Shown here one piece after another: positions 1 through 5,191 of a stretch of 64,000 nucleotides of DNA. The first letter of the stretch is position 1. Each line of letters starts with the position of its first letter. Origin of the DNA: Cyclobacterium sp. (GTDB taxonomy: Bacteria; Bacteroidota; Bacteroidia; Cytophagales; Cyclobacteriaceae); NCBI RefSeq assembly GCF_014762705.1, contig NZ_JABURL010000015.1, positions 1 to 64,000 of the forward strand, read 5' to 3'. The notes under the pieces are model-generated. The model did not search any database. It saw nothing but the letters and a program-made list of their open reading frames with translations, and was not told the origin of the DNA. A program made the translations under genes and the position numbers.

Positions 1-79
1 TAGAGAAGCACCAAATTCTTTGAGCTATTTGCGCATTCTTGGTGTTCTAGATGACTAATCTTTTGGTTTTATTGGGCAA

Positions 80-110
80 GAAAAAAGCCACGAAACACTG
101 TTTCATAGCT
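80..110 (-). terminator. Intrinsic terminator of tRNA-like RNA, copy 1
   Basis: On the minus strand AGCTATGAAAC (110-100) pairs with GTTTCGTGGCT (96-86) across a 3-nt loop, with two G-U pairs, and is followed directly by a run of T. It lies about 35 nt beyond the 3' end of the tRNA-shaped RNA, so that RNA looks like an independent transcription unit. Confidence 0.8.
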
Positions 111-144
111 TTAGTCAATTAACAATAAACCCAAAATAACCTGC

Positions 145-267
145 TGTAGGAGAAGGAGTCGAACCTCCACGGAGCAGTTAGGCAAAATACGAGCTCGCTA
201 TTTGCTTTTTCCTGTGACCTCCACCCCCGAGACAGGAGGGCATGTCTGCCAGTTTCATCATCCTACA
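145..267 (-). ncRNA. tRNA-shaped RNA with 55-nt variable arm, GUC anticodon (copy 1)
   Basis: Read on the minus strand from 267 to 145 the 123 nt fold as a cloverleaf. There is a 7-bp acceptor stem (TGTAGGA with TCCTACA), T8, a 3-bp D stem (ATG/CAT) and a D loop with A14, GG18-19 and A21. The 5-bp anticodon stem (CCCTC/GGGGG, one G-U) carries the loop CTGTCTC, and the 5-bp T stem carries the loop TTCGACT. The anticodon would be GUC (Asp, plus-strand 231-233). The loop differs from the well-known tRNA-Asp loop CUGUCAC only at position 37, and base 73 is G, also an Asp identity base. The variable region is 55 nt, far above the usual class II size, and can form GGAG/CTCC plus an inner GCAAA/TTTGC hairpin. 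CCA is not encoded. It could be an unusual working tRNA, a tRNA-derived regulatory RNA or a decaying tRNA. A tmRNA is unlikely, as no tag reading frame is seen. Confidence 0.6.
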
Positions 268-276
268 GTATTGTGT

Positions 277-311
277 CAAATATCCCGGTACCCGAAGCAA
301 GCTTCTTTACC
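277..311 (-). promoter_or_regulatory. Possible promoter and inverted repeat of the tRNA-like RNA, copy 1
   Basis: On the minus strand GATATTTG (284-277) resembles the Bacteroidota -7 box and ends 9 bases before the RNA 5' end. Upstream lies an imperfect hairpin (311-287) with arms GGTA/TACC and GAAGC/GCTTC. No TTG lies at the ideal -33 distance, so the promoter call is weak. The hairpin is kept in copy 2 although its bases differ. Confidence 0.3.
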
Positions 312-600
312 AGGTCAAGACCGTTTGTCTTTATTTGATATGTCAAAGGTAATAAAAGAATTGATTTTTTAAAATTAAAATAATAAAAATTATTTATTTT
401 TATGTTTTCTTAAATTTTAATGGCCTTTTGTTAAATCATATGTAATATAGGTTTGTGGAAGAATTGTTCTGTTGCAAATATTAAAACTGAAAGTAGCAAC
501 CAGGTCATGTATACCCTTACGGGATCGGTGGTATTCTTTTTTTTCAAACCTGGGTCCGATGTAATTTTATGACTTAATCGTCATTGGTAGAACTAATATA

Positions 601-990
601 TTAAAAAACGCAGAAATCGGGATGACGATGTGATTTTTATTAATTTGATTTTCAGAGTATTAACAAAAATGTCATCGGTAAATAGGCAAATCTAAGGTTC
701 TAAGGGGGGAGGGGGATTTTTGACGAAAACTGAAAATCACTTGTAACTCCAAACTTTTCCAAAGTTTAGAACTTTGGAAAAGTTAAGCCCAGATTTCCAA
801 ATTGATCGCGACCAAAATCTCCCTTTTTAAGGAGGCAGAGTCTGTCCCGACCAAAGTCGGGAGGGGATTTTTTCGATAACATCTTAAATATAAATTCGTT
901 ATTTGTTACTTATTTTGAAATCTTTACCGAAGCCGGGCATTGCTGTCACAGCGAAAATTTACTTTTTAAAAAACGCAGAAATCGGGATCA
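601..990. repeat. Direct repeat pair of a 25-nt motif
   Basis: A motif beginning TTAAAAAACGCAGAAATCGG occurs at 601-625 and again at 966-990, exact apart from one base near its end, 365 bases apart on the same strand. Function unknown; probably a genome repeat fragment. Confidence 0.6.
752..784. repeat. Perfect inverted repeat, 15-bp arms
   Basis: The arm AACTTTTCCAAAGTT (752-766) is followed by a 3-nt loop and its exact reverse complement (770-784). Neither strand has a clear T-run after the hairpin, so it is not an ordinary intrinsic terminator. It may be a dispersed palindromic repeat unit. Confidence 0.75.
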
Positions 991-1289
991 CGGTTTAAAT
1001 TTTTCAAAAAATTGATTTACTGTTATTTAGAAAATTCGTCATTGGTAATGCCAGGAAAGCCATCCGTACCGGAGCGTGGGCGTACGTTCTTCGAAAAATG
1101 ACAGTGAAATCAAAATGGCGTTTACCTATTCCTACAGGCTGCCGTGAGTGCCGCTGGATTTTGATCCCTTCGGCCAAATACCAGATTTGCACCCTGGCGA
1201 TGACCTAATTGGAATTGTTTTTTTTTAAGCATAACTCCTTAAGAAATTAAAAAAAAAAGACCAATATTAATACGCAAATAGGGGTGGGC

Positions 1290-2132
1290 TCAGGGAGCCA
1301 CTAACCTACCCACCATAATCCCTGACTGAGATTTATTGCCATTCAAATAGTCACTCAAAGTATTTTCAGAAATCTCTACCTGCCCGGACCGGGTACCTGC
1401 ATGCAATAAATGAATCTGTCCATTTTGTTCAATGGCAAAACCGACATGCACGATATCCAGGTTTTTCATACTTGTAGTGATGGCAATCAGATCTCCGGGC
1501 TTGATTTTATCCACATGCCTGTTCAATTCCTCCTTGGGAACAAAAAAATATTTTCTCAATTTGATCTCTTCTTCGGTAGCTTTTATCTGGACCACAAATT
1601 CAGGATTGCTCAACTGTACATAGAACCGGGGGTTGGCTGACATAAAGGAGGGTGTATTTTCATAATACCGGCCTCCCAGGTCCTTAGTAATATCCTTTAA
1701 AATCCCTTTCAGCTGGTTTTGATATAGCCAGTCTGAGAAATAATGCAATCGGGAAGTATAGCCCTTCCTGATACCGTCCCGGTACCTTACAAATTCAAGT
1801 TCCTGCTCATAATTCTCAAATGACAGGCGTTCTTGTTTGACAAGCCTGGCCAGGGTAACAACAGTCTCCAAAAACGTGGTGCAGTCCAGGCCCAACACAT
1901 CTATCACTAATTTTTCTTCACCTGGCAATTCCAGGGTTTTCTCCACGTAGGGTGTATGCATAAAGCGCCTGCCTATGTTGAGAATCAAATCATTCATGGA
2001 CATTTTTGAATATTCTGTTTGTGAAAGCTCACTGAAGGAAGCTTCAAGAATGTCTCTGCTCTCTAAAGTGCAGACCGTCTGCCCCTGAGTCATTGCTGGA
2101 ATAAATAAGAGCACTATGACAATTAATCGCAT
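1290..2132 (-). CDS. DUF1460 secreted amidase-like protein
   Basis: The protein matches the DUF1460 family (N-acetylmuramoyl-L-alanine amidase-like, related to NlpC/P60 fold cysteine hydrolases), which act on peptidoglycan fragments in the periplasm. A hydrophobic signal peptide ends near TQGQT. The likely nucleophile is the Cys in LDCTTFLE (residue 84 from this start). A histidine-bearing segment IVHVGFAI and HLLHAG near the C-terminus should supply the other active-site residues. A TTG at 2141 extends the frame by three codons, but ATG at 2132 leads straight into the signal peptide and is preferred. The gene lies alone between the two tRNA-like repeats, on the same strand. Function is known only from the family. 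Confidence 0.85.
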   Translation of the reverse strand: MRLIVIVLLFIPAMTQGQTVCTLESRDILEASFSELSQTEYSKMSMNDLILNIGRRFMHTPYVEKTLELPGEEKLVIDVLGLDCTTFLETVVTLARLVKQERLSFENYEQELEFVRYRDGIRKGYTSRLHYFSDWLYQNQLKGILKDITKDLGGRYYENTPSFMSANPRFYVQLSNPEFVVQIKATEEEIKLRKYFFVPKEELNRHVDKIKPGDLIAITTSMKNLDIVHVGFAIEQNGQIHLLHAGTRSGQVEISENTLSDYLNGNKSQSGIMVGRLVAP

Positions 2133-2590: not shown

Positions 2591-2621
2591 GAAAAAAGCC
2601 ACGAAACACTGTTTCATAGCT
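2591..2621 (-). terminator. Intrinsic terminator of tRNA-like RNA, copy 2
   Basis: Identical to the terminator of copy 1: an 11-bp GC-containing hairpin (with G-U pairs) followed by a T-run on the minus strand. Confidence 0.8.
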
Positions 2622-2655
2622 TTAGTCAATTAACAATAAACCCAAAATAACCTGC

Positions 2656-2778
2656 TGTAGGAGAAGGAGTCGAACCTCCACGGAGCAGTTAGGCAAAATA
2701 CGAGCTCGCTATTTGCTTTTTTCCGGACTCTCCACCCCCGAGACAGGAGGGCATGTCTGCCAGTTTCATCATCCTACA
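2656..2778 (-). ncRNA. tRNA-shaped RNA with 55-nt variable arm, GUC anticodon (copy 2)
   Basis: Same 123-nt cloverleaf as copy 1 with identical acceptor, D, anticodon and T arms. The only differences lie in an 8-nt block of the variable arm (2722-2729). There copy 2 reads GAGTCCGG on the minus strand, shifted relative to GTCACAGG in copy 1, with one more A in the adjoining A-run. The GGAG/CTCC outer pairing and the inner GCAAA/TTTGC hairpin are kept. Keeping every tRNA feature while one unpaired block differs argues against simple decay. The function is unknown. Confidence 0.6.
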
Positions 2779-2822: not shown

Positions 2823-2863
2823 AGATCAAGACCGTTTGTCTTTGTTTGATATGTCAAAGGTAA

Positions 2864-4201: not shown

Positions 4202-5191
4202 TCATCTCCACATTTCTTCGATCAAGTCGGTATAAAAATCTTTCAGGCTCATCCCCATGGCCCTGACTTGCTGGGATATCAAACTGGTTTCAGTTTGTCC
4301 TGGTACGGTATTGATCTCGATAAAATAAAACTTTCCGGTATCTTTTTCCAAAAAATAATCCATCCTTACCGAACCCTTACAATTGAGTTTGAGGTACGCT
4401 TTTTCTGCAATCTGCTTTACCCTTTCCACTTCCCTTTCATCCATCCTTCCCGGGGTAATCTCTTCTGATACTCCGGGAATATACTTCGCTTCAAAGTCAA
4501 AAAATTCCCGGGAACTGATTATTTCTGTAGCAGGCAATACGGTAACCTGCCCCGATGTTTTGTATATGCCGATAGAAAACTCCCTGCCGGTGACAAATTC
4601 TTCCACAAGCACCTGTTTGTCCTCTTTGAATGCCTTGATCAGCGCTTCCTCCAGCTCATCTGCGCTTTTGACCTTAGACATCCCGATACTGCTGCCGCCA
4701 TTGTTGGGCTTGACGAAATAGGGGAGTTGCAACTGGCTCAGCACATGTTGTACGTTTTCGGGGCGATGGGAAAACAACTGCATGGATCTGGCCAGGTGCA
4801 GGTCTTCTATACCGGCCAGAATGGCCTTTGTATACCCCTTGTTCATGGTAATCGAAGAGGTCAGCGCATCGCAGGTGGTATAGGGCAGACCAATCATGTC
4901 AAAATACCCGGCCAGTTTGCCATCTTCTCCCGGAGTGCCGTGTATGATGTTAAAAATACCATCAAAGGCAAGCTCTTTCCCATTTTTCATAACCGTAAAC
5001 CCGTTCAGGTCTACCGGATATTTTTCCCCTTTCTCATCTTCCAGGTACCAGTTGCCCGGATAGATATGCACTTTATGCACCTCATAGCGCTCCCGGTCCA
5101 GGTGCTGGGCCACCACGGCAGCACTTTTTTCGGAGACCACCGATTCTCCTGTATAGCCGCCCATGATCAGGGCAATTTTTTTCTTCTTCAT
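4202..5191 (-). CDS. ddl: D-alanine--D-alanine ligase
   Basis: ATP-grasp ligase that joins two D-alanines for the peptidoglycan stem peptide, in the cytoplasm. The N-terminal Rossmann-like part starts with IALIMGGYTGE. A Gly/Ser-rich segment NNGGSSIGMSKV and the C-terminal magnesium-binding segment FIEINTVPGQTETS are seen as expected for the family. The length of 329 residues is normal. The ATG at 5191 is the first in frame and leads into MKKKKIALI. The gene is upstream of rluF in an apparent two-gene operon. A family paralogue on the chromosome is possible, but nothing suggests loss of activity. Confidence 0.93.
   Translation of the reverse strand: MKKKKIALIMGGYTGESVVSEKSAAVVAQHLDRERYEVHKVHIYPGNWYLEDEKGEKYPVDLNGFTVMKNGKELAFDGIFNIIHGTPGEDGKLAGYFDMIGLPYTTCDALTSSITMNKGYTKAILAGIEDLHLARSMQLFSHRPENVQHVLSQLQLPYFVKPNNGGSSIGMSKVKSADELEEALIKAFKEDKQVLVEEFVTGREFSIGIYKTSGQVTVLPATEIISSREFFDFEAKYIPGVSEEITPGRMDEREVERVKQIAEKAYLKLNCKGSVRMDYFLEKDTGKFYFIEINTVPGQTETSLISQQVRAMGMSLKDFYTDLIEEMWR

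Follow-up and report, generated by a model that had tools for sequence, protein, structure and literature searches.

The minus strand of positions 144-267 of the DNA analysed here, a stretch of 64,000 nucleotides referred to as the window, encodes one copy of a conserved RNA family whose members are shaped like tRNAs and have an unusually large side arm. Its fold, its family and the linkage of the family to an AsnC-type regulator gene were shown by computation. We tentatively regard the RNA as a dedicated tRNA paralogue working outside ordinary codon reading, a view to which we give somewhat less than an even chance.

A tRNA-shaped RNA with a large variable arm

The RNA (copy 1) starts with nucleotide 1 at position 267 and has G73 at 144, one position beyond the 145-267 span assigned to it in an earlier note on this DNA; the class II fold and the 55-nt variable region described there were upheld. 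The minus strand fits a complete 7/5 class II cloverleaf: a 7-bp acceptor stem (UGUAGGA/UCCUACA), a 3-bp D stem (AUG/CAU) with a Leu-type D loop, an anticodon arm CCCUC-CUGUCUC-GGGGG with a 5-bp stem and a T arm GGAGG-UUCGACU-CCUUC, also with a 5-bp stem and with the loop UUCGACU. The anticodon loop CUGUCUC has U33 but U37, and differs from the tRNA-Asp loop of the same genome (CUGUCAC, L247) solely at position 37, as had been claimed for standard tRNA-Asp.

Single-sequence folding of copy 1 gave a z of -1.10, with 23 of 200 shuffles folding equally well or better, and the minimum-energy fold differs from the full cloverleaf. What raises copy 1 above chance is the comparative evidence, namely family model scores and covariation, and not single-sequence energy. 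The family covariance models R1 and R2 scored it at 147.9 and 133.2 bits, both window copies being among the sequences used to build R2.

The possibility that a known RNA family would match the segment better found no support: ARAGORN called neither a tRNA nor a tmRNA in the window, and Rfam gave no gathering-level match anywhere in it. A permissive Rfam search (E up to 10) of window positions 1-1300 gave no tRNA match; it returned chance matches, one of them a 6.6-bit tmRNA fragment that falls on the T arm. A tmRNA, with its tRNA-Ala-like end and tag frame, was rejected on the basis of this lone fragment and of the ARAGORN result. With the tRNA model RF00005 (29-bit gathering threshold), copy 1 was not among the 37 matches of its own genome, and no copy in the loci of seven relatives was matched. 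Separately, a near-perfect 17-bp inverted repeat at window positions 749-787 (ACTTTTCCAAAGTT...) matched several microRNA models by chance in the permissive search.

On the minus strand, a terminator-like hairpin followed by a T run (84-112), which a pattern scan identified as a consensus match only, starts 31 nt beyond G73. The intrinsic terminator of the earlier note would correspond to this hairpin, at 112-84. Such sites are not rare there: six occur in 3.3 kb, against a shuffled mean of 3.2. A TAnnTTTG-type -7 box, TACCTTTG, was read by eye at 344-351 (minus strand), 76 nt upstream of nucleotide 1.

A second copy (copy 2; 2655-2778, minus strand; 131.6 bits with R2) is 96% identical to copy 1 over 201 nt including flanks; most of the differences fall in the 5' portion of the variable arm. 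It is followed by its own terminator-like hairpin and T run (2595-2623, minus strand; pattern scan) and preceded, again by 76 nt, by a -7-like box TACCTTTG (2855-2862, minus strand; read by eye). The two RNAs, together with leader and terminator, lie in a near-identical duplication in which positions of about 1-352 correspond to 2512-2863; the duplicated stretch flanks an AmiA-like amidase gene (1290-2141). The genome as a whole holds four full copies and a 50-nt start at a contig end. The fourth copy (contig 56) differs from the others in leader and terminator and keeps the fold through paired changes, for example from AUG/CAU to UUG/CAA in the D stem.

A DNA search with this fourth copy gave matches in 79 of 99 relatives, a count that includes partial matches of about 50 nt; some were tandem arrays with a spacing of about 175 nt. 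The search of Bacteroidota genomes with a covariance model that the earlier note had proposed was carried out with R1, built from 19 sequences, and gave 40 of 395 genomes of the phylum at E <= 5e-17. The 350 of 395 genomes with any R1 match were rejected as a measure of prevalence: 310 of these genomes match less well, and most of the places listed among the weaker matches span 82-86 nt, just as ordinary class II tRNAs do. Families f25, f26 and f30 gave no R1 match at family-level scores. A pattern scan of 84,980 species genomes yielded at least 120 named loci, and all 120 listed belong to Bacteroidota in the broad sense. They include three Ignavibacteria metagenome-assembled genomes (L091, L169, L175) and one Kapaibacterium (L201), which we take to fall within the Bacteroidota phylum in GTDB. 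Among open-licence papers, judged by title and the start of the abstract, no description of such an RNA was found.

Covariation was assessed in an alignment of 128 matches from 91 chosen sources (126 distinct sequences), in which 96.1% of the cells pair and 24 of 34 pairs changed on both sides; none of 500 shuffles was as good and slid controls paired at 50-57%, the alignment being fitted to the structure and so leaning towards the model. When 19 copies were aligned by MAFFT on sequence only, 96.9% paired, with 14 of 34 double changes, 0 of 500 shuffles as good and slid controls at 49-60%; here the T and anticodon stems hardly vary, and the acceptor, D and variable-arm stems provide most of the support. 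The many homologues with covarying stems support the original proposal of a non-canonical tRNA or a tRNA-mimic RNA.

The base stem of the variable arm covaries (GGAG/CUCC, GGGG/CCCC, GAAG/CUUC, GAGG/CCUC), and a purine-rich internal loop, AAA/CUAA, recurs. Motifs seen by eye in the distal arm are a GAGCUC loop in copies of the Cyclobacteriaceae type and a GGGU(U/A/C/G)GACCAC segment in many other cellular and phage copies; short forms have almost no distal arm. Since the distal arm differs among lineages, this part is accessory. A kissing-loop homodimer through self-pairing loops (GAGCUC, UGAUCA, GGUCGACC) was rejected as a general feature: over 77 non-redundant variable-arm segments, out of 170, the longest palindrome averaged 5.01, and shuffling gave 5.19.

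In two of four tandem copies of one genome (L027:1142-1273 and 1322-1453, minus strand), a ATCCCGATAGCTATCGGGA-like palindromic insert replaces part of the D and anticodon arms. Comparable TCCCGATAGCTATCGGGA inserts were seen within or close to copies in L062, L112 and L206; insertion of a small palindromic repeat element into these RNAs would give such a picture.

AsnC-type regulator, promoter motifs and viral copies

An AsnC-type open reading frame was found divergent to the RNA in 81 of the 120 named loci listed, the nearest such frame lying 56-335 nt from the RNA as measured from the limit of the open frame. The other 39 listed loci showed no such neighbour; in at least seven of them (L119, L156, L165, L184, L188, L196, L201) the RNA lies less than 200 nt from the end of the stretch on the relevant side. 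Separate clustering of the neighbours in the 120 listed loci placed the regulator family at 80, on the opposite strand in 80 of 80. No second partner gene was found in this listed set; the next commonest neighbour family, near 20 of the 120 loci, fits lineage synteny.

For the converse test, the best 30 regulator loci of 119 class genomes were chosen by the protein alone: 17 carry the RNA alongside, all in divergent orientation, and 13, including that of the window's own genome, do not. Across the 119 genomes, the regulator was present in 24 of 24 RNA-positive genomes, one of which (G072) rests on a short 68-bit match, and in 13 of 95 RNA-negative ones (Fisher p 4e-16, a value inflated by shared ancestry). 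In the window's own genome no RNA lies beside the AsnC gene. Upstream of that genome's own AsnC gene, at the site occupied by the RNA in relatives, a short minus-strand segment (L207:838-852; CTACAGGTTATTTTG) resembles the 3' end of a copy with its trailer and is possibly a remnant of a lost RNA copy.

The regulator of Chitinophaga pinensis has an Lrp/AsnC ligand domain, and its best PDB match is E. coli AsnC (2.1e-32, versus 8.7e-9 for Lrp). According to a published account, local Lrp/AsnC regulators often control a divergent neighbour, and asnA is activated by AsnC, asparagine lowering the activation (PMC8707732).

Motifs were counted in 70 non-redundant intergenic stretches between AsnC-type genes and the RNA. 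The pattern TTTG-N17-23-TAnnTTTG pointing at the RNA occurred in 27 (shuffled mean 0.96) and on the other strand in none of the 70; the other 43 stretches lacked the full promoter pattern. The element TAnnTTTG alone, which corresponds to the sigma-A -7 box consensus of flavobacteria as given in PMC9723704, was present in 50 of 70, against 14.3 after shuffling. The palindrome AAATATTT, found in 36 of the 70 stretches versus 6.7 in shuffled ones, could be an operator. Two further enrichments were seen in the same stretches: AAGTTCTT-like words (AGTTCTT, 13 of 70 versus shuffled 1.5) and TTGTCAAG (13 of 70 versus shuffled 0.33).

The RNA pattern used to scan the species genomes also matched 35 viral contigs. 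The family model confirmed 34 of them, at 78-117 bits, and in the 35th (L231) the contig ends within the RNA. Fifteen of the 35 were analysed with ARAGORN, and in several of these the RNA proved to be surrounded by a large tRNA array, with 22 tRNA genes in L237 and 14 each in L215, L216 and L241. In L237, L215 and L241 the RNA is embedded between ordinary tRNA genes; in L237, for example, it occupies 4806-4952, between tRNA-Ser (4716-4801) and tRNA-Leu (4958-5040). The program called four of the 15 viral copies, all short forms, as tRNA-Asp(GTC) and missed the other 11. An ordinary tRNA-Asp(GUC) accompanies the RNA in the phage stretches L216, L237 and L241. Five of ten proteins from viral stretches had PHROG matches, including a portal protein and an RNA ligase.

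Comparison by blastn of the window copy with named phages and plasmids gave no match; of four phage-type copies compared with named phages, three had none and one had a single match of 74.7%, in an unannotated record. A phage stretch also encodes, at L221:3960-4367 (minus strand), a tmRNA (ARAGORN; 132 bits in Rfam) with an overlapping 57-bit permuted tmRNA match.

Fixed residues and competing explanations

Residues were counted in 59 distinct copies picked without regard to loop sequence, 19 of which built R1, so that the set is partly dependent on the model. G2-C71 and G73 were present in 59 of 59. The loop is 7 nt long in 57 copies; every one of these has U35, C36, C38 and a pyrimidine at position 37, while 53 have G34 and 51 have U33. 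A larger set, selected by regular expression, comprised 186 cellular and 15 viral copies. All of these have G73 (186/186 and 15/15), followed in 201 of 201 by C74, as in the nine ordinary tRNA genes of the window's own genome that were read. U33 was kept in 157 of the cellular copies and lost in 29; G34 was replaced in 17. U1-A72 was present in 185 of 186, and position 10 was A or U in 158. CCA is encoded in 21 of the 186, little more than the roughly 12 expected with C74 fixed. Of 124 copies counted separately for the 11:24 pair, 103 have U-A and 17 have C-G.

In two published accounts, bacterial Asp identity is ascribed to G73, G34, U35, C36, C38 and G10, with G2-C71 as a minor element (PMC9976931, PMC6523644); the first also gives G1-C72 as conserved in bacterial tRNA-Asp and A73 as required for Leu identity (PMC9976931). 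Copy 1 has G73, G34, U35, C36 and C38, and the agreement of the fixed loop and acceptor residues with the bacterial tRNA-Asp set strengthens the label "tRNA-Asp-like" given in the earlier note. The cellular copies lack the G1-C72 and, usually, the G10 of tRNA-Asp, and G73 replaces the A73 of tRNA-Leu. A canonical decoding loop of 7 nt, with U33 and a purine at 37, was not found in any of the 57 copies. In its anatomy the RNA combines the body of a tRNA-Leu with identity residues of the Asp type, and its loop is poorly suited to decoding.

The main rival explanation is a tRNA-mimic small RNA that would never be charged, its tRNA fold serving stability or processing, its variable-arm domain mediating its action and an AsnC-type protein controlling its level. 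Such an RNA might, for example, bind a protein, pair with mRNA or act as a decoy for tRNA-cleaving nucleases. Its variable arm does have conserved parts of its own (the covarying base stem, the AAA/CUAA loop and, in many copies, the GGGU(U/A/C/G)GACCAC segment), the pyrimidine at 37 and the drift at 33 and 34 suit a non-decoding RNA, and the stretch of one phage copy also encodes an RNA ligase. We nevertheless consider a mimic rather unlikely: short phage and cellular copies that lack the distal arm keep G73, C74, G2-C71 and a UCUC-type loop, so that the fixed part is the part that a synthetase would read.

The GUC anticodon, accompanied by U33 in most copies, and the carriage of the RNA by phages among ordinary tRNAs would also suit a decoding tRNA, a rare isoacceptor for GAC/GAU or related codons under special conditions. 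This is improbable in view of the pyrimidine at 37 in every counted copy, of the loss of U33 or G34 in part of the cellular copies and of the ordinary tRNA-Asp(GUC) found both beside the phage copies and in the window's own genome. The tRNA set of this genome looks full, and its tRNA-Asp(GUC) means that the RNA is not needed for Asp codons.

Still less credit is due to the idea of a class II tRNA that accepts serine and bears a foreign anticodon, similar to an allo-tRNA. G73, G2-C71 and a large variable region belong to bacterial Ser identity too, together with C72 and C11-G24, according to Table 1 of PMC9976931, and allo-tRNAs with GUC anticodons are known (PMC7609411). In the RNA described here, C72 and C11-G24 are absent or rare, A72 being nearly universal and the 11:24 pair mostly U-A; the D arm is of the Leu type, the acceptor and T stems have 7 and 5 pairs and not 8/4 or 9/3, and Ser identity leaves the fixed U35, C36 and C38 unexplained.

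A functionless tRNA copy, whether decaying or selfish, such as a pseudogene, an integration-site remnant or a repeat element, is disfavoured to the point of being scarcely credible: the multiple copies in some genomes, the tandem arrays and the duplicated flank in the window would agree with it, but covariation extends to all arms, the divergent linkage to one gene is kept across families, and the promoters are kept as well.

Proposed role and comparison with known systems

Transcription, charging and function of the RNA are what we infer for the preferred reading, that of a paralogue outside codon reading. Its computed steps are the class II cloverleaf, which is conserved and covaries and joins a body of the tRNA-Leu type to an additional domain in the variable arm; the TTTG/TAnnTTTG promoter pointing at the RNA upstream of many AsnC-linked copies; the divergent linkage to, and co-occurrence with, the AsnC-type regulator; and the carriage of the RNA by phages inside tRNA arrays. 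The transcript would begin with a 5' leader, be trimmed as tRNAs are and receive CCA. AspRS would charge it, because G73, U35, C36, C38 and G2-C71 are invariant in the counted copies and G34 is mostly kept. It would decode seldom or never, given the pyrimidine at 37 and the loss of U33 or G34 in some lineages. The AsnC-type protein would set its level according to an amino acid, asparagine or aspartate being the natural guess. In its charged or its uncharged form, the RNA might then donate aspartyl groups or sense the aspartate/asparagine status. Phages may bring their own copy as they do with ordinary tRNAs, so that the function is kept when host tRNAs are attacked or scarce.

Several observations weigh against parts of this reading. 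The A or U usually found in place of G10, and U1-A72 in place of G1-C72, speak against Asp charging, and the U33 still present in most cellular copies would allow decoding. The replacement of G34 in some copies, the low number with encoded CCA, the RNA-free AsnC gene of the window's genome, the listed loci that lack a regulator neighbour and the confounding of co-occurrence by ancestry count against the paralogue reading. So does the synthetase complement: the genome has three class IIb synthetase genes only, which leaves no dedicated synthetase of that class. The full form of the reading, that Bacteroidota and large phages hold an extra tRNA class that is Asp-charged, non-decoding, under an AsnC sensing asparagine or aspartate and important enough for phages to carry it, is a possibility that we put below an even chance.

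If the reading is right, ARAGORN and Rfam pass over a tRNA that has been missing from the known set of a large bacterial phylum. With its fixed charging residues and apparently disabled decoding loop, such a tRNA would lend itself well to testing what tRNAs do apart from translation. The presence of the RNA in phage tRNA arrays raises the question of whether it is replaced because hosts or defence systems remove it, and the AsnC link offers an experimental handle on the controlling amino acid and on what the RNA changes.

Among known RNAs, the tRNA-Leu(GAG) of the same genome (L047) has the closest D arm in its own tRNA set (score 10.7; the next, tRNA-Gln, 8.6) and shares the class II shape, G26 and U44. 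The RNA differs from tRNA-Leu in having G73 and not A73, U1-A72, the loop NNNUC(U/C)C and, in copy 1, the 55-nt variable region. With tRNA-Asp it has in common a nearly identical loop (CUGUCUC versus CUGUCAC), G73, U35, C36, C38, G2-C71 and mostly G34; unlike tRNA-Asp, it has a class II body and a pyrimidine at 37, lacks G1-C72 and usually lacks G10.

GcvA and GcvB form a divergent pair of a regulator and a small RNA, and GcvB is not tRNA-like. The arrangement described here is similar in that the RNA gene is divergent from a local amino-acid regulator, and differs in the tRNA fold of the RNA.

The allo-tRNAs and selC* tRNA-Cys, as described in PMC7609411, are likewise non-canonical class II tRNAs, some with GUC anticodons, in which identity is independent of shape. 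Their acceptor and T stems have 8/4 or 9/3 pairs, in contrast to 7/5 here, and they come from Clostridia, Proteobacteria, Acidobacteria and others (PMC7609411), whereas the present RNA was found here in Bacteroidota and viral contigs.
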